From: an uncultured Bacteroidota bacterium
Lineage (GTDB): Bacteria; Bacteroidota; Bacteroidia; AKYH767-A; JABDAW01
Reading direction: 5' to 3'
DNA length: 39,353 nt
NCBI GenBank assembly: GCA_903844645.1
Contig: CAIMUP010000113.1
Span: 1-39,353 of the forward strand
This document shows, one piece after another, positions 4,149-32,315 of the stretch. The position numbers were made by a program, and so were the translations under genes. Position 1 is the first letter of the stretch. Every line of letters begins with the position of its first letter. The notes under the pieces are model-generated. The model was not told the DNA's origin. It worked only from the letters and a program-made list of their open reading frames with translations, and ran no database searches.

Positions 4149-4403
4149 GGAATGAATCAAGGTTTTTCAGAAATCAATCAGGTATCTCAAGGAATGAATC
4201 AAGGTTTTTCAGGAATAAATCAAGGTTTCTTGGGAATAAATCAAGGTCATTTAGGCATAATCCACGTGTTTCATGCCTTAATGTTCCCAATTTATTCCTG
4301 AAAAACCTTGATTTATTCCTGAAAAACCTTGATTGATTCCTTGGGATACTTGATTCGTTTCTTGCGATACGTAACTCGTTCTTTGGGATTCACAACTCGT
4401 TCT
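4149..4403. repeat. 21-bp tandem array B with two inverted arms
   Basis: Six 21-bp units (core GGAATAAATCAAGGTTT) run rightward from 4149 to 4274. After about 24 nt, five units run in the opposite orientation from 4299 to 4403 (core AAACCTTGATTTATTCC). The units nearest the centre are best conserved and the outer right units have diverged while keeping phase. A GGCAT/ATGCC stem spans the centre (4254-4277), so the block could fold as a long cruciform or hairpin. It lies between convergent genes. Confidence 0.9.
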
Positions 4404-12538: not shown

Positions 12539-15247
12539 TTACTTCGCTGCGGAGGTTTCGATGGAGAAGGTGATTTTGACGTCGTCGCCTAAGCCGGGAC
12601 CGGATTTGCCGATGTGAAACTCGCTTCGTTTGATGGAGTATTCGCCCTCGAAAGTATAGATGCTAGGCTTGTTATTTCGCTTGGTTTCTCCTGCATAATT
12701 AAAGGGTAGCTCGACATCTTTAGCCACGTCTTTGATGGTGAGTTTTCCTTTGGCGACGTATTTGAATTGCTTGTCTTTCGTGGAATCTATCGAGGTGGCA
12801 TGGAAGGTAATCTTAGGGAATTTGTCGGCATCGAAGAAGTCTGGACTGCCGACGTGTTCGTCGCGGAAGGTATTGTTGGTTTTAATGGACTTTACATCGA
12901 GGGTTAAGTCCATCGTCGTGGTCTTCATGTCGCCAGTGAGGTTCACAAAACCGGTATCGGCATCTACTGTTCCGCGAGCGGTGGAGAGGGCATGTTTCAA
13001 TGAAAAACCAATCCACGAATGCGCTTTATCGAATACATAAGTGCCTTTCAAGGGAGTAATATCTTGAGAGATACTCATGGAAATTTCGGTAGCTTTCTTA
13101 TCCATCGCAGCTTCCTTCGCGCCACTGTCCACGGCAATGTGCGGAGCAATAACGAGGGAAACGATTGACATCAGTTTAATCAAAATATTCATTGAAGGAC
13201 CAGAAGTATCCTTGAAAGGATCACCAACAGTATCCCCAGTAACAGAGGCTTTGTGGGCATCTGAACCTTTGTATTCCATCTTACCATTAATGTCCACACC
13301 TTTCTCGAAACTCTTCTTGGCATTGTCCCATGCGCCGCCTGCATTCGATTGGAAAATAGCCATCAACACACCAGAAACCGTAACACCTGCAAGTACTCCG
13401 CCTAAGATTTCTGCACTGGATGTATCCTTAAATACACCCTTCAATCCGAAACCGATAATAATTGGAACTAATAACGCCAATGCACCAGGCATAATCATCT
13501 CTCTCAAAGCTGCTTGGGTAGAGATAGCGACACACTTTTCATATTCCGGTTTGCCAGTGCCTTCCATGATTCCAGGAATTTCACGGAACTGACGACGAAC
13601 TTCTTCAACCATCGCCATAGCAGCACGTCCAACCGCAGAAATTGCCAAGGCAGAAAAGACAAATGGTATCATACCTCCGATAAATAATCCTGCAAGTACG
13701 GGAGCTTTGTATAAGTCAATAGAAGTAAGTTTAGTAAGCCCGACAAAGGCAGCAAACAAAGCCAATGAAGTCAATGCGGCAGATGCAATCGCGAAGCCTT
13801 TTCCGGTAGCAGCCGTAGTGTTACCTACTGCATCGAGTATGTCGGTTTTCTCACGAACTTCTTTTGGAAGATGGCTCATTTCGGCGATACCACCAGCGTT
13901 ATCCGCGATAGGACCGAAGGCATCAATCGCTAATTGCATGGCTGTTGTTGCCATCATTCCTGCCGCTGCGATGGATACTCCATAAAGCCCTGCAACCATG
14001 TATGAACCAACAATTCCTAATGCAAGAACGATAATTGGCATTGCGGTACTCATCATCCCGACACTCAATCCAGCAATGATATTCGTAGCTGCACCTGTCG
14101 AAGATTGGCGAATGATAGAATTAACTGGCTTCCTTCCCATGGCGGTATAATATTCGGTAATCATGGAGATTAAAGCTCCTACCATCAAACCAATAACCAC
14201 AGAATAAAACACGCCCATGTTACTGAAATCTTGTCCGCGGAAGTTCAGATTCTCTGGCAATACCCAACGAATTATAAAGAAAGAAGCAACCGCCGTCATA
14301 ACGATAGAAGACCAATTCCCCATGTTTAATGCACCTTGAACATTCGTGCCGCCTTCTTTAATCTTCACAAAGAACGTACTGATGATAGAAAAGATAGTTC
14401 CCATTCCGGCAATAAGCATTGGCAATAACATAGGACCGATTCCTCCGAAGTTATCATGCGAAACAATCTCTCTTCCGAGAACCATCGTTGCTAACATCGT
14501 TGCTACATAAGACCCAAATAAATCGGCTCCCATACCAGCAACGTCACCAACATTGTCTCCAACATTATCTGCTATGGTAGCAGGATTACGTGGATCATCT
14601 TCAGGAATTCCGGCTTCTACTTTCCCTACTAAATCAGCTCCGACATCGGCAGCTTTTGTGTAGATTCCTCCACCGACTCTTGCAAAAAGGGCAATACTTT
14701 CTGATCCCAAAGAGAACCCTGTCAATACCTCCAAAGCGCGTTCCATTTCTTTGCCATTTACATCGGCTCCGTGGACGAACATATATTTGAATAAAATAAA
14801 CAATGAACCCAATCCCAATACCGCCAAACCAGCTACTCCCATGCCCATTACGGAACCTCCCCCGAAGGAAACGCTCAATGCTTTTGATAAACTCGTACGA
14901 GCGGCTTGTGCAGTTCTGACATTCGCCTTGGTCGCGATTTTCATCCCAATAAATCCTGCCGAAATCGAGAATAATGCCCCAACCACAAATGCTCCTGCTA
15001 TTAAAGGAGAAGAATTCTCTCCTGAATACCCGATATACATCAAAAATAAAACCGCGAGGATGACATAATATGCCAAGATTTTATACTCCGCCTTCAAAAA
15101 CGCCATTGCGCCATCGGCGATATGCTTCGCTATCTCGGTCATTTTTTCATCTCCGGCATCTTGCCGAACCACCCACTTTGCCTTTATATAACAATAAAAC
15201 AAAGCCACTAACCCGAAAACGGGCACTAAATAAATCACATTTTCCAT
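12539..15247 (-). CDS. hppA: K+-dependent membrane pyrophosphatase fused to a C-terminal YceI-like domain
   Basis: Residues 1-about 712 are an ion-pumping membrane pyrophosphatase that couples PPi hydrolysis to H+ and/or Na+ export. The acidic PPi/Mg site ([20 protein letters not shown], then DNVGDNVGD, residues 201-235) and the second acidic site ([18 protein letters not shown]) are intact. [10 protein letters not shown], with Ala rather than Lys, is the K+-dependent signature. The helix-6 position that is Glu in Na+ pumps (DLFESY) is Gly here (DLFGSY), and a Glu appears in the preceding helix (GSESIALF), so ion choice is unresolved. Residues about 730-902 form a YceI-like lipid-binding beta-barrel domain ([15 protein letters not shown] to the end). 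Such pumps place the C-terminus outside the cytoplasm, so the domain would be periplasmic, where free YceI proteins work. The frame is continuous through a short linker. Confidence 0.92.
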
Positions 15248-15306
15248 ACTTTTATATTCTATTAAATTTTATTTCAAATCACAAGCCCCGCCATTGTCAG
15301 GGGCGG

Positions 15307-15314
15307 CAAATTTA
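15307..15314 (-). promoter_or_regulatory. -7 element TAAATTTG for hppA
   Basis: TAnnTTTG match 60 nt upstream of the start. The leader contains a GCCCC/GGGGC stem (around 15283-15302) that may affect expression. Confidence 0.65.
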
Positions 15315-15435
15315 GAAATATAATAGCAATTGCCAAACTAATACGTCTTCTTTGCCTTTTATTGCATTCCCCGAAGAGGGGAAATGTCATAAAAGGATAA
15401 CATTAAATACTCCAGAAAAAATTCTTCAACCCTCT

Positions 15436-15452
15436 TTTTGGAGCCTCCAAAA
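15436..15452. other. Short perfect palindrome upstream of hppA
   Basis: TTTTGGAG and CTCCAAAA pair around a single base. It is nested between an outer inverted pair, ATAAAAGGATAA (near 15391) and TTATCCTTTTAT (near 15463). It could be a terminator or operator; its function is unknown. Confidence 0.35.
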
Positions 15453-15492
15453 GCCCCAATTTTATCCTTTTATAAGCTAAAACCTTCCCTAA

Positions 15493-15702
15493 GCATCAAG
15501 AATATTTCTACAGCCTTAATGGAATTTTCCTTGACCTTAATGGAATTTTCCTGACCCTTATTGGAATAATTCCTACCCTTAATGGAATAATCATTAAGCA
15601 TAAAGTGCCACGGTTTATGCTTAAGGAAGATTCTATTAAGGTGAAGTCATTGCACTTTAACCTTAAAGAAGTTTCCATTAAGCCTAAAGAATTTTTAGGG
15701 AG
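15493..15702. repeat. Diverged 21-bp tandem array E around a central hairpin
   Basis: About ten 21-bp units can be followed in strict phase from 15493. Left units read CCTTAATGGAATTTTCC. Right units carry the inverted form (TTTCCATTAAGCC). Between them is a perfect 7-bp hairpin GCATAAA/TTTATGC (15598-15620). Sequence identity between units is low but no unit gains or loses a base. The rest of the 15248-15855 gap holds the hppA promoter, the palindrome at 15436, and nothing else I recognise. Confidence 0.75.
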
Positions 15703-15855
15703 ATTTAGCAGAATTAAGGCGAAGAAGGGAAACTTTTGGGCATAAATCCACTCCTTATATATAGGGGCTTTTTTTAAATTCCTGAAAGGTCAATTTTCTT
15801 CCCGCTATGTTTGGAATGGAATAATCATCCCCAAAAAATCGTGCCGGCAGGGATA

Positions 15856-16308
15856 TTATTCCCCGTTTTCGTACCCCTGGTCTATCAAAAGATTTTTGGA
15901 TAATGCCGCAGAAACCGCCAATTCATCGCAGCGTTCGTTTTCGGGATGCTCGTTATGCCCCCTCACCCACTGGAATTTTACTTTATGTTTTGGATAAACC
16001 TTCAGAAACCGTCGCCACAAATCGGGATTCTTTTTATCCTTAAAACCCTTCTTCTCCCACCCGAAAACCCAACGCTTTTCGATGGCATCAATCACATACT
16101 TGGAATCGGAAGTAACCACCACCTCCTGCCCCTCATTTTTAATGCACTCCAAAGCAACGATGACGCTCAACAATTCCATGCGGTTGTTGGTTGTATGGCG
16201 GTATCCCTGCGAAATTTCTTTGTAATGAATTCCTGATTTCATGATGATTCCATAGCCCCCCGGACCAGGATTTCCTCGCGATGAACCGTCGGTATAAATA
16301 TGTATCAT
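15856..16308 (-). CDS. rnhA: Ribonuclease HI
   Basis: This 150-residue RNase HI would cleave the RNA strand of RNA-DNA hybrids, for example Okazaki primers and R-loops. The catalytic residues are in place: Asp7 (YTDGSSRGNPGPGG), Glu45 (NRMELLS), Asp67 (TSDSKYV) and Asp128 (ENERCDELA), with His118 in VRGHNEHPEN. The length is normal. Its ATG overlaps the purN stop by 4 nt (ATGA), so the two are translationally coupled at the end of a leftward run. Confidence 0.96.
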   Translation of the reverse strand: MIHIYTDGSSRGNPGPGGYGIIMKSGIHYKEISQGYRHTTNNRMELLSVIVALECIKNEGQEVVVTSDSKYVIDAIEKRWVFGWEKKGFKDKKNPDLWRRFLKVYPKHKVKFQWVRGHNEHPENERCDELAVSAALSKNLLIDQGYENGE

Positions 16309-22359: not shown

Positions 22360-22473
22360 GCCGATATTTTTTTGGATAAGGAGGTAAAATTAGGAAAATT
22401 TCTGGTAGTGTATCAGTTTAAAAGAAGCTATTAAACTCAATATCCAGAGGAAGTTTTTGAGCTCCCTTCGGTA

Positions 22474-22767
22474 AAAGGAAGTATCCTTTCGGTAAAAGGA
22501 AGTATCATTTGAACCAAAGGAAGTATCATTTGAACCAAAGGAAGTACCATTTGAGCCAAAGGAAGTATCATTTGAACCAAAGGAAGTATCATTTGAGCCA
22601 AAGGAAGTACCATTTGAACCAAAGGAAGTACCATTTGAACCAAAGGAAGTACCATTTGAACCAAATGAAGTACCATTTGAACCAAAGGAAGTACCATTTG
22701 GGTCAAAGGAAGTATCATTTGGGTAAAAGGAAGTATCATTTGGGTAAAAGGCATTCGTATTTAAGCC
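22474..22767. repeat. 21-bp tandem array H, the longest
   Basis: Fourteen consecutive 21-bp units with core AAAGGAAGTATCATTTG run without any insertion or deletion. Variation is concentrated at a few positions (TATC or TACC; GAACC, GAGCC, GGTCA or GGGTA), and the edges are more diverged than the middle. It lies between divergent genes. Open frames on both strands encode seven-residue repeats (for example GSNGTSF on the minus strand) but have no other coding signs. The rest of the 22360-22989 gap holds only the leucine dehydrogenase promoter. Confidence 0.95.
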
Positions 22768-22915
22768 AAAGGGGGTTAATGGGATGATGTAATGATTATA
22801 TAGCATTGCATTTAACTGAATAAAGATTCAAAATGATACGCTACCAGATTTCTCGAAATGGGAAAGGTAAAAGGACAAACATTTTCGATGGATTATGGAA
22901 CTTCAAAAATTTCCC

Positions 22916-27407: not shown

Positions 27408-27505
27408 GGAAGGGGCGATTACATGTCAGGATGCTTGACCACAAATATTTAATGAATAATTCAAGACATATAAACCGGATAGGGATGCAAGGTGGCAATC
27501 AAAAG

Positions 27506-27702
27506 GAAGTAAGTTTGCCGAACTTACGAGTAACTTTGCCGAACTTACGAGTAACTTTGCCGAACTTACGAGTAACTTTGCCGAACTTACGAGTAAGTTT
27601 ACCGAACTTGCTTGCAACTTTACCAAACTTGCTTGCAAGTTTACCGAACTTGCTTGCAAGTTTACCGAACTTGCTTGCAAGTTTACCGAACTTGCTTACC
27701 AG
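27506..27702. repeat. 21-bp tandem array I with a mid-array unit switch
   Basis: About nine 21-bp units are in one phase. The first half has core CTTACGAGTAACTTTGCC and the second half core CTTGCTTGCAAGTTTACC, which contains the palindrome CTTGCAAG. The change happens near 27607 in a single step without loss of phase. It lies between divergent genes. The 27087-27386 stretch to its left has only AT-rich DNA with small direct repeats and no gene I would support. Confidence 0.93.
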
Positions 27703-27757
27703 TGAATGTAAAACCTTACATTTAAGCCCTTCGCTTGTTCTAATAAAAATTTTGAAC

Positions 27758-27778
27758 AAACATCCTGACAGGGAATCG
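27758..27778. repeat. Direct repeat right of array I
   Basis: Second copy of the 27387-27407 element, in the same orientation 371 bp away. Confidence 0.6.
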
Positions 27779-27853
27779 CGGCTTTGTGAATCTACTTATT
27801 CCATTATTACTACCAAAAGGTTATCCCTATGGGACTGAATCATGAAAGATTCT

Positions 27854-29846: not shown

Positions 29847-32108
29847 CTACCGCCTCACCACCACCACTATCTTGCCTTGCAAAGTCTCATTCGCAGTCAT
29901 CACTTGGTAAAAATACATACCATTGCAAAGCGAGGAAATATCAATTCTTTCTTTGCCTGCATTGCCAACCAGTTCATTCTTAAAGACCACTCTCCCTGTC
30001 AAATCAGTAACCACAAAAACAGCATTCGCAGTAGCTAAATGATAATCCAAAACAAAATTACCATCATTAGGATTCGGATAAATAACGATGGAATGACTGC
30101 TACTAACCTCATTGATACCCGTAGTAAAACAGATAGAATCAGACTTGCTTTTGCATCCATTGCTATCCGTTATTTCGACATGATAACAACCGTTTCCAGG
30201 GATGGTAAACTGTTGGTTGGTATCATTCGCGATACTCGTGTTGCCTAAGAACCACTGGTATTGGTAAGCCGTGCTCGAGATCAGCGTGTCCCCCAATTGT
30301 GTTATCGTAGGAATCTGGGGAGGAAGGAAAACAATGTAATAAAAAATCTGCACAGAAGTATCTGTAAAGATGCCGCAAGCCGTGGTATCGTAGTCTACAA
30401 GAGTAATAGAATAGCTGCCAGAATGGCTGTAAGAATGCACCGGATTAATAACCGTGCTAGTGCCTCCTTCGCTGAAATGCCACCAATAAGAAGTAGCATC
30501 GGTACTCGTATTCGTAATGTGAATGATCAAAGGTTTGCAGCCAGAAAGCGTATCCACAAGGAAGGAGCTGTGTGGATGAATAAAAGTAAGGACATTAACT
30601 CCAATGGAATCGCTTACGGTGCATCCTCCATTGGTAACCTGAACATAATAATTACCAGTAGCAGAAACAGTGATGAATTGGGTGGTTGCGCCATTCGACC
30701 ATAAGAATTGATTGCCTGGATTACCTGCATTTAGGGTAATAGAATCGCCATTGCATAGCGTGGTATCAGCCCCGAGATTAACAGTAAAAGGGGCAGAGAT
30801 AGTAACATGAAAAGTATCGGTCAGTGTAACGATGGCAGCGCATCCATTGGGGCTTTGAACTTGCACCCAATAGGCTCCATTATTAGTTATAGAAATGGAA
30901 GCGGAAGTTTCCCCGGTGGACCATAGGTATGTGCTGCCAATAGCCGTGGCAGTAAGCACCAGAGAGCTTGAACATACTGTAGTATCTATCACGATGGTGC
31001 TGGGAAGTGTGACGATTGCATCCACCATATTTGGCAATCCGAAGGAAGATATTCCAGGTGCCAGCGGCAAGGAATTCAATACACAATTACAAGCCAAACC
31101 AAGCGCATTCGGGGCGTTGATAACACTCAAAGTCGGACTATTATATTCCGCAATATAAATTTTATTATCAGGTCCAATCTGCAATGCTCCGTAGGCATTC
31201 GGGCTATTCGCGATAGTAACCCGTGTAGTCAAAATAGTGGCTTGATTGTTCGACGAAATATCAAATTGAAAGACCGAAGAACCCGTATTGGTAAAGACGG
31301 ATGTGTACATCTTTGTGTTGTCGGGAGAAAAGGAAATACCATAAGGTCCGACATTAAAGGAAATGTAAAGCGTCTTCAGGTTGGATAGAACACCAGTCCC
31401 GTTATCGAAGTCATACAACTCAAATGTGCCGCTTGCTTCCCAGGCAACAGCCATCTTTTGTCCGTTGGGAGAGGCTTTAAGATAACCAATATAGTTCGAA
31501 CTCGTACTAACCGACATCCCAATATGTGTAATAACTGGTGGTGCAACTCCGGCATTGGTAACCAGATAAGCATAGAAAGCATTGTCATAGTAATTATGCA
31601 CCACAACCCAGTAATCATGTCCGTTGCAATGCTTCACAGCAGTCAACTTTTCGCAGGCAGGAGTAACCAACGGAACATTCTTTACAGTAATATCACCATG
31701 CCCGCCATTCAACGTCATGTCCACTTCCGAATAACGGATTCCATTAGCACCTATGCTTGCGGCAGCATTGAAGACATAATAAATATTAGCACTGTCGGGC
31801 TTGGGAATAATCAAGGCAGCTTGCGTGGATGACCAATCGCCCATCAAGCCCGCACCATTGGGCATAATCGAGTGCGTATTATCCCAAACGGTATCGCCAT
31901 CGGTATAAAATAACAGATGCCCGGCAGCATCAGAAATAGAGGCACTGCCTTCGGCTTGATGCATCGAATCTCCGGTAACAGCAACGGGAATTCCGGTACT
32001 GAAATTGAGGGCGGAATGATAACCAAAATACCAATTCCAATACTGTTGTTGGCTGAAACCATGAAGGCTCATCAACGAAATGATTAATACCAAGTAAATT
32101 TTTTTCAT
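29847..32108 (-). CDS. Large secreted PKD/Ig-domain protein with T9SS sorting domain
   Basis: This 753-residue protein has a signal peptide (MKKIYLVLIISLMSLHGFSQ). An N-terminal region of about 370 residues resembles a beta-propeller (GHLLFYTDGDTVWDN, LKASPNGQKMAVAWE, ISFSPDNTKMYTSVF). Ig-like repeats follow (TYLWSTGETSASI, FLWSNGATTQFI), then a PKD domain (CKPLIIHITNTSTDATSYWW), another Ig-like segment and a type A T9SS sorting domain (IVIYPNPNDGNFVL to the end). It is probably secreted to the surface. The start at 32108 is fixed by the signal peptide; a longer frame to 32243 reads through the promoter. Confidence 0.9.
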   Translation of the reverse strand: MKKIYLVLIISLMSLHGFSQQQYWNWYFGYHSALNFSTGIPVAVTGDSMHQAEGSASISDAAGHLLFYTDGDTVWDNTHSIMPNGAGLMGDWSSTQAALIIPKPDSANIYYVFNAAASIGANGIRYSEVDMTLNGGHGDITVKNVPLVTPACEKLTAVKHCNGHDYWVVVHNYYDNAFYAYLVTNAGVAPPVITHIGMSVSTSSNYIGYLKASPNGQKMAVAWEASGTFELYDFDNGTGVLSNLKTLYISFNVGPYGISFSPDNTKMYTSVFTNTGSSVFQFDISSNNQATILTTRVTIANSPNAYGALQIGPDNKIYIAEYNSPTLSVINAPNALGLACNCVLNSLPLAPGISSFGLPNMVDAIVTLPSTIVIDTTVCSSSLVLTATAIGSTYLWSTGETSASISITNNGAYWVQVQSPNGCAAIVTLTDTFHVTISAPFTVNLGADTTLCNGDSITLNAGNPGNQFLWSNGATTQFITVSATGNYYVQVTNGGCTVSDSIGVNVLTFIHPHSSFLVDTLSGCKPLIIHITNTSTDATSYWWHFSEGGTSTVINPVHSYSHSGSYSITLVDYDTTACGIFTDTSVQIFYYIVFLPPQIPTITQLGDTLISSTAYQYQWFLGNTSIANDTNQQFTIPGNGCYHVEITDSNGCKSKSDSICFTTGINEVSSSHSIVIYPNPNDGNFVLDYHLATANAVFVVTDLTGRVVFKNELVGNAGKERIDISSLCNGMYFYQVMTANETLQGKIVVVVRR

Positions 32109-32134
32109 TGTTAAGAATATTTGTTTGTGGGCAA

Positions 32135-32142
32135 CAAAATTA
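32135..32142 (-). promoter_or_regulatory. -7 element TAATTTTG for the PKD/T9SS gene
   Basis: TAnnTTTG match 26 nt upstream of the start at 32108. Confidence 0.7.
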
Positions 32143-32315
32143 CAAATTATTATGGATAAAAGAATGATTGTTCGATTAGGATTGCAAATACTGTCCATCG
32201 GAATTGCTTGAAACCGCACACCGAAGCGCGAATTGCCCATCAATTAATCACCAGAAAAGGACCGCAAGGCATCAGTGAATTTACCTTTATTAATGTTACC
32301 TAAAACGATGCAATT

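Follow-up and report, generated by a model that had tools for sequence, protein, structure and literature searches.

How can a tandem array hold its period to the base when its units have almost ceased to resemble one another? The question is raised by array E at positions 15493-15702 of the window, the whole 39,353-nt stretch of DNA from an uncultured Bacteroidota bacterium that was analysed here. The preliminary description of this DNA held that a strict 21-bp phase had outlived the loss of unit identity, and the autocorrelation bears this out: values of 0.571, 0.542 and 0.469 at lags 21, 42 and 63 stand against only 0.389 and 0.394 at the neighbouring lags 20 and 22. Dinucleotide shuffles of the array gave a lag-21 mean of 0.272 (sd 0.032), and across lags 10-59 none of 500 shuffles exceeded 0.397, so that lag 21 is clearly raised over both the shuffled sequence and the adjacent lags. 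The periodic signal peaks at 15500-15610 and is fainter, but still detectable, up to about 15715. The CCTTAA and GCTTAA starts by which the units had been aligned fit the same register, in which all nine TTAA tetramers of the window copy lie at phase 9 or 15. TRF reported 10% indels on 15500-15589, which we read as probable compensated slips in AT-rich units, because the end-to-end comparison of copies described below shows the register intact.

A dispersed, MITE-like, non-coding element has array E as its core, with a leader before the 21-bp array and a tail after it (Table 1). The array is tandem, without spacers, and the leader and tail are common to several genomic copies. Searching the genome of origin with 15200-15900 returned four further strong matches with 79-91% identity, which lie on contigs C86, C103, C141 and C25. 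Three of the four reach contig ends, and therefore at least four E copies are present in the genome; repeats break assemblies and truncation at contig ends is expected, and five copies are likely. The sister species G001 carries four E copies at 74-78% identity, and in both species the leader core TTTTATAAGCTAAAAC also borders arrays whose units have other sequences. The ends of the E element yielded no convincing TIR or TSD, whereas the sister element at 22404-22848 has both. Beside the leader lies a separate, near-perfect palindrome, CCTTTTATTGCATTCCC..GGGAATGTCATAAAAGG, which is REP-like and adjoins the leader in three E copies; it has many further matches in this genome and two sister genomes (about 12 other places in G000, G001 and G002) and is missing from the C25 copy.

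Table 1. Features of the array E locus and of the comparison element in the window.
Feature	Position	Strand	Description
Separate short dispersed palindrome	15355..15400	.	CCTTTTATTGCATTCCCC..GGGGAAATGTCATAAAAGG; beside the leader in 3/4 left ends in this genome
E element (leader, 21-bp array, tail)	15417..15773	+	357 bp against 357 bp on C25, 79% identity, no net length change
Leader module	15417..15479	+	contains TTTTGGAGCCTCCAAAAG and core TTTTATAAGCTAAAAC; matches the C25 and C86 leaders
Phased array	15480..15715	.	about 11 units of 21 bp; TTAA only at phases 9 and 15; autocorrelation and eight-copy gap-free alignment
Central pseudo-palindrome	15592..15625	.	ATTAAGCATAAAGTGCCACGGTTTATGCTTAAGG; symmetry centre of the window copy, array position 129.0
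Tail module	15716..15773	+	ends at or near AATCCACTCCTTATATATAGGGGC; 80% identical to the tails on C25 and C141
Comparison element, MITE-like	22404..22848	+	inverted repeats GGTAGTGTATCA[GT]TTT, 21-bp array inside

Starting at the anchor AAACCTTCC and running through the array, the alignment of eight E copies, two of them (C86 and C103) cut by contig ends, has no gap; the array length is identical and the identity 63-98%. Zero shift was the best offset in nearly all pairs, followed by 21 or 42, and the identity fell to 0.2-0.4 at shifts of 10 or 20. The pair L005-L009, and marginally L005-L013, slightly preferred a 21-bp shift over zero because their symmetry centres differ by 21. A likelihood tree of the E block holds about 1.08 substitutions per site, or about 232 in 215 bp, and 0 indels; the probability of no indel on this tree is 0.01, 9e-6 or 8e-11 at assumed indel/substitution ratios of 0.02, 0.05 and 0.1, respectively. 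The leaders of the E copies in G000 vary in length, unlike the arrays, and the leader and tail flanks of the sister family gave 0.07-0.16 gap events per substitution by a looser counting method. Pairwise gap counting on the E arrays returned many gap events, which we discounted because an aligner is free to slip in AT-rich repeats; the end-to-end register is the sounder measure.

Paralogous and sister-species copies were compared because the orthologous gap in relatives lacks E, gene order being broken there. E is absent beside the H+-pyrophosphatase gene in three relatives, a different 21-bp array stands beside this gene in one sister species, and orthologs of the second array-neighbouring gene had no array alongside. 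The H+-pyrophosphatase of the window (12539-15247, minus strand) is fused to a C-terminal YceI domain, and full-length matches to this fusion occur in only a few Bacteroidota MAGs. Farther along the window, a 798-aa protein is encoded at 29847-32243 (minus strand); two sister genomes each contain over 200 partial matches to it, and it is a member of a very large repeat-rich protein family.

The E copies are organised around a symmetry that moves between them by whole 21-bp units. At the centre of the window copy, 18 of 24 dyad pairs match, against a column-permuted null with a mean of 13.9, a 95th percentile of 16 and a maximum of 17. Every E copy has a strong palindrome centre at array position 129.0, 150.0 or 171.0, in steps of exactly 21, and several secondary dyads lie at 34.5 and 181.5, an offset of 10.5. 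The arms vary by copy (AAGCATAAA, AAGGTTAAAG and AAGGATAAAG), each with its matching opposite arm. Since the centres step by 21 and the arms differ, the apparent loss of identity between units partly reflects an altered orientation within a pseudo-palindromic repeat. Pairing between a copy's own arms (0.75-1.0) is not clearly higher than the cross-copy mean of 0.75, and covariation is therefore not claimed. The nearest relative of the window copy is not the same for leader and array: its leader is identical to that of C25 at 61/62 positions and to that of C86 at 48/62, while its array matches C25 at only 167/236 and C86 at 212/222 (Fisher p 3e-7 and 5e-5). Because leader and array have different closest relatives, these modules have been recombined between copies.

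These results uphold one part of the preliminary description and replace another. The accumulation of substitutions without loss of phase stands, and zero indels beside so many substitutions require either constrained spacing or a length-fixed copying process. The single array decaying in place that it implied gives way to a multi-copy element in which corresponding units are conserved across copies, the array is exchanged between leader contexts, and unit divergence partly reflects internal orientation change around the central palindrome.

The element at 22404-22848 belongs to a sister family with five more copies besides the window copy. Its ends are the inverted GGTAGTGTATCA[GT]TTT, and the family shows mobility. 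The duplication is a perfect 8 bp in the C111 copy (ATTCCTTT), is imperfect (7/8) in C122 and in the window copy (AAATTTCT/AGATTTCT), and is lacking in the others. The leader of 76-78 bp and the tail of 58-60 bp are conserved with slight length variation, and the units are not the same in sequence from copy to copy. Dividing the array lengths by 21 leaves a remainder of 4 for 109, 193 and 319, of 5 for one further copy and of 12 for the window copy (array 22474-22742), the last probably from an indel beside the tail. Thus, four of the five complete arrays have equal remainders within one base.

Arrays of this period extend across the genus, where we found about one per 5-6 kb of sampled DNA, or 2-3% of the sequence. 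Three species of the genus had lag-21 coverages of 32.6, 20.9 and 23.8 per mille in a sample of stretches partly chosen for holding matches, and arrays were equally frequent on blindly picked contigs (L125-L131). Outside the genus, coverage at this lag dropped to 0.66 per mille for the next genus of the family, to 0.48 for the order and to 0.11 for other Bacteroidota. No species of the genus exceeded 0.6 per mille at lag 20 or 22. The windowed array finder favours an intact register, a bias that is limited, not removed, by a separate scan of lags 14-28, in which lag 21 gave 110 stretches and lags 20 and 22 a single one each, both adjoining arrays. The 851 units of 91 arrays carry 2583 substitutions relative to their consensus, with five phase shifts in array interiors. 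Clustering of the array units gave 77 groups, 70 of which have one member, and the units are mostly unrelated in sequence, which suggests that the period itself, not the sequence, is what is kept. The sampled arrays are intergenic and occupy all gap types, one of 79 lying inside an open frame under a crude gene model.

Palindromes are enriched in the units (11.9 against 10.5 in shuffled sequence, p 1.4e-7). The folding excess of 78 arrays has a mean z of -1.92 and -1.85 on the two strands; because it is equal on both, array folding is a DNA rather than an RNA feature. Predicted curvature lies just above the null (mean z 0.36, computed from wedge values), and curvature was rejected as a general cause of the period on this small value. 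Carriage by phages or viruses was likewise set aside, as a search of viral contigs with two exact patterns gave no match; a neighbouring gene had no match in a plasmid collection.

Several individual arrays have features of their own. In the array at 4149-4402 of the window, the units flip orientation mid-array; in folding excess it ranks first among the arrays tested, with z of about -11 to -12 on either strand, and it accounts for two of the five interior phase shifts. The array at 27415-27779 is bounded by inverted GCGATTACATGTCAGGATG / CATCCTGACAGGGAATCGC, and the motif CATCCTGACAGG is found elsewhere too (e.g. L169). In G001, the array at 130-745 of L137 is flanked by inverted repeats GTAAGCGAACGTTTC, the starts of which resemble IS66-type ends. 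In the same species, an E copy and another array (L134, 13065-13578, and L132) lie between inverted repeats of at least 50 bp (CCGCTACTATCGGGGCTATGCTCTGACGGCAGGTAGC), a further dispersed repeat.

A multi-copy element with a fixed register and total length across copies and two species, and with recombining modules, calls for a cause of its constancy. We give about an even chance to a spacing constraint on the two-helical-turn period as the explanation of array E. Each 21-bp unit would be pseudo-palindromic about two dyad axes separated by 10.5 bp, and dyads would recur once per helical turn on a single face of the DNA; we infer that this geometry is what is conserved. A hypothetical two-fold symmetric DNA-binding factor, or machinery of mobilisation or recombination, could read the dyads in helical phase. 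Such a reader would tolerate base substitutions but not a shift of one base, and copies out of register would fail to be kept or propagated, whether selection acts on the host or on propagation of the element. In-register recombination between units and copies may meanwhile rewrite and exchange the sequence with the period unchanged. A single sequence-specific protein cannot read all the arrays, because the units differ almost totally between them. The wider proposal is doubtful: a genus-wide architectural system in which hundreds of intergenic arrays, unrelated in sequence, would be held at exactly two helical turns per unit by a chromosomal factor or mobilisation machinery that reads the dyad spacing and not the sequence, while modular mobile elements would distribute the arrays and the arrays would be rewritten in 21-bp quanta.

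The main rival is length-fixed rewriting without selection on phase, in which unequal exchange, gene conversion and template switching at inverted repeats would overwrite one 21-bp unit with another, changing the sequence blockwise while passing on a period inherited from an ancestral array. It covers exchange and quantal change well: modules are exchanged, symmetry centres shift by whole units, and array lengths in the sister family vary mostly by multiples of 21 bp, with their units replaced by others. It does not cover the scarcity of indels, since in-register copying alone does not purge them and neutral concerted evolution should spread both indels and substitutions, whereas five phase shifts stand against the 2583 substitutions. 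The E copies, moreover, look frozen rather than homogenised, with a unit identity at lag 21 of only 0.57. We regard this process as possible, although on balance unlikely, as a sufficient cause.

The remaining alternatives fare worse. If the array were transcribed and a long hairpin were the functional product, the better folding of array E than of its shuffles (z -4.9 as DNA on the plus strand, z -4.3 as RNA on the minus strand) and the retention of a central palindrome with different arms in different copies would be accounted for; the 78 arrays, however, fold without strand bias, there was no Rfam match at the gathering score, the own-arm pairing given above does not exceed the cross-copy level clearly, and a stem tolerates changes in loop length, which leaves the strict 21-bp register unexplained. 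A structured RNA is thus very unlikely. An ordinary recent minisatellite, too young to have gained indels, would agree with their complete lack taken alone, yet the copies differ by up to 37% with the substitutions counted on the tree, and the flanking leader changes length between the same copies; this highly improbable reading is already contradicted by the divergence. Coding constraint deserves the least credence and is close to refuted. Twenty-one base pairs would make seven codons and the units heptapeptide repeats; several arrays do lie within ATG-start open frames, and one frame is open throughout E, but open frames across tandem repeats are expected anyway. No open frame of 80 residues with a start codon occurs in E, and codon positions show no bias, the sorted sums over 79 arrays (1418:1151:912) equalling the estimated random three-way split.

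Parts of this organisation are familiar from other systems. Iteron and operator arrays space their repeats by two helical turns and place dyads on one face of the DNA, as here; they differ in that no replication gene was noticed near E and the arrays lack a common unit sequence for one protein. REP/BIME elements are dispersed palindromes associated with RAYT transposases, and resemble our case in the dispersed palindromes, including the REP-like one beside the leader; to our knowledge, REPs do not form strict 21-bp arrays. A REP/RAYT origin was rejected, since a search of the genome for Y1 transposases found only one partial domain. The element at 22404-22848 is like MITEs in general (PMC10969869) in its inverted repeats, 8-bp target duplication and non-autonomous look, and unlike them in having inside it a phased array whose units change in sequence from one copy to the next. 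The closest likeness is to BrickBuilt of Porphyromonas gingivalis, a MITE/minisatellite with a 23-nt unit of one sequence family, 19 copies, IS5-type ends and target duplications of differing length (PMC4596501). Both occur in Bacteroidota as intergenic, multi-copy elements composed of a leader, a spacer-free tandem array that gains or loses whole units, and a tail, and neither has an internal transposase. In contrast to BrickBuilt, the unit here is 21 bp, unit sequences are mostly unrelated genus-wide, and the E copies are fixed in length, with no convincing inverted ends seen. E is BrickBuilt-like in its working, but the different unit length and the lack of convincing ends keep us from filing it as a member. 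The best reading of the arrays is that they are BrickBuilt-like minisatellite elements with constrained two-helical-turn spacing. Our searches, which covered open-access papers, returned no description of a genome-wide or genus-wide 21-bp system.

Our study also bears on how tandem repeats are understood. They are usually recognised by sequence, with the period regarded as a by-product. In our case, the period is constant and the sequence almost completely variable between arrays, in what by extrapolation would be hundreds of arrays in one genus, and the period also holds across the copies of a single element in two species. The period is thus separable from the sequence, which poses the question of how 21 bp is measured, whether through selection for helical phase or by a ruler-like enzyme. 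The dispersed copies of E are ready-made replicates for a direct test of indel tolerance.
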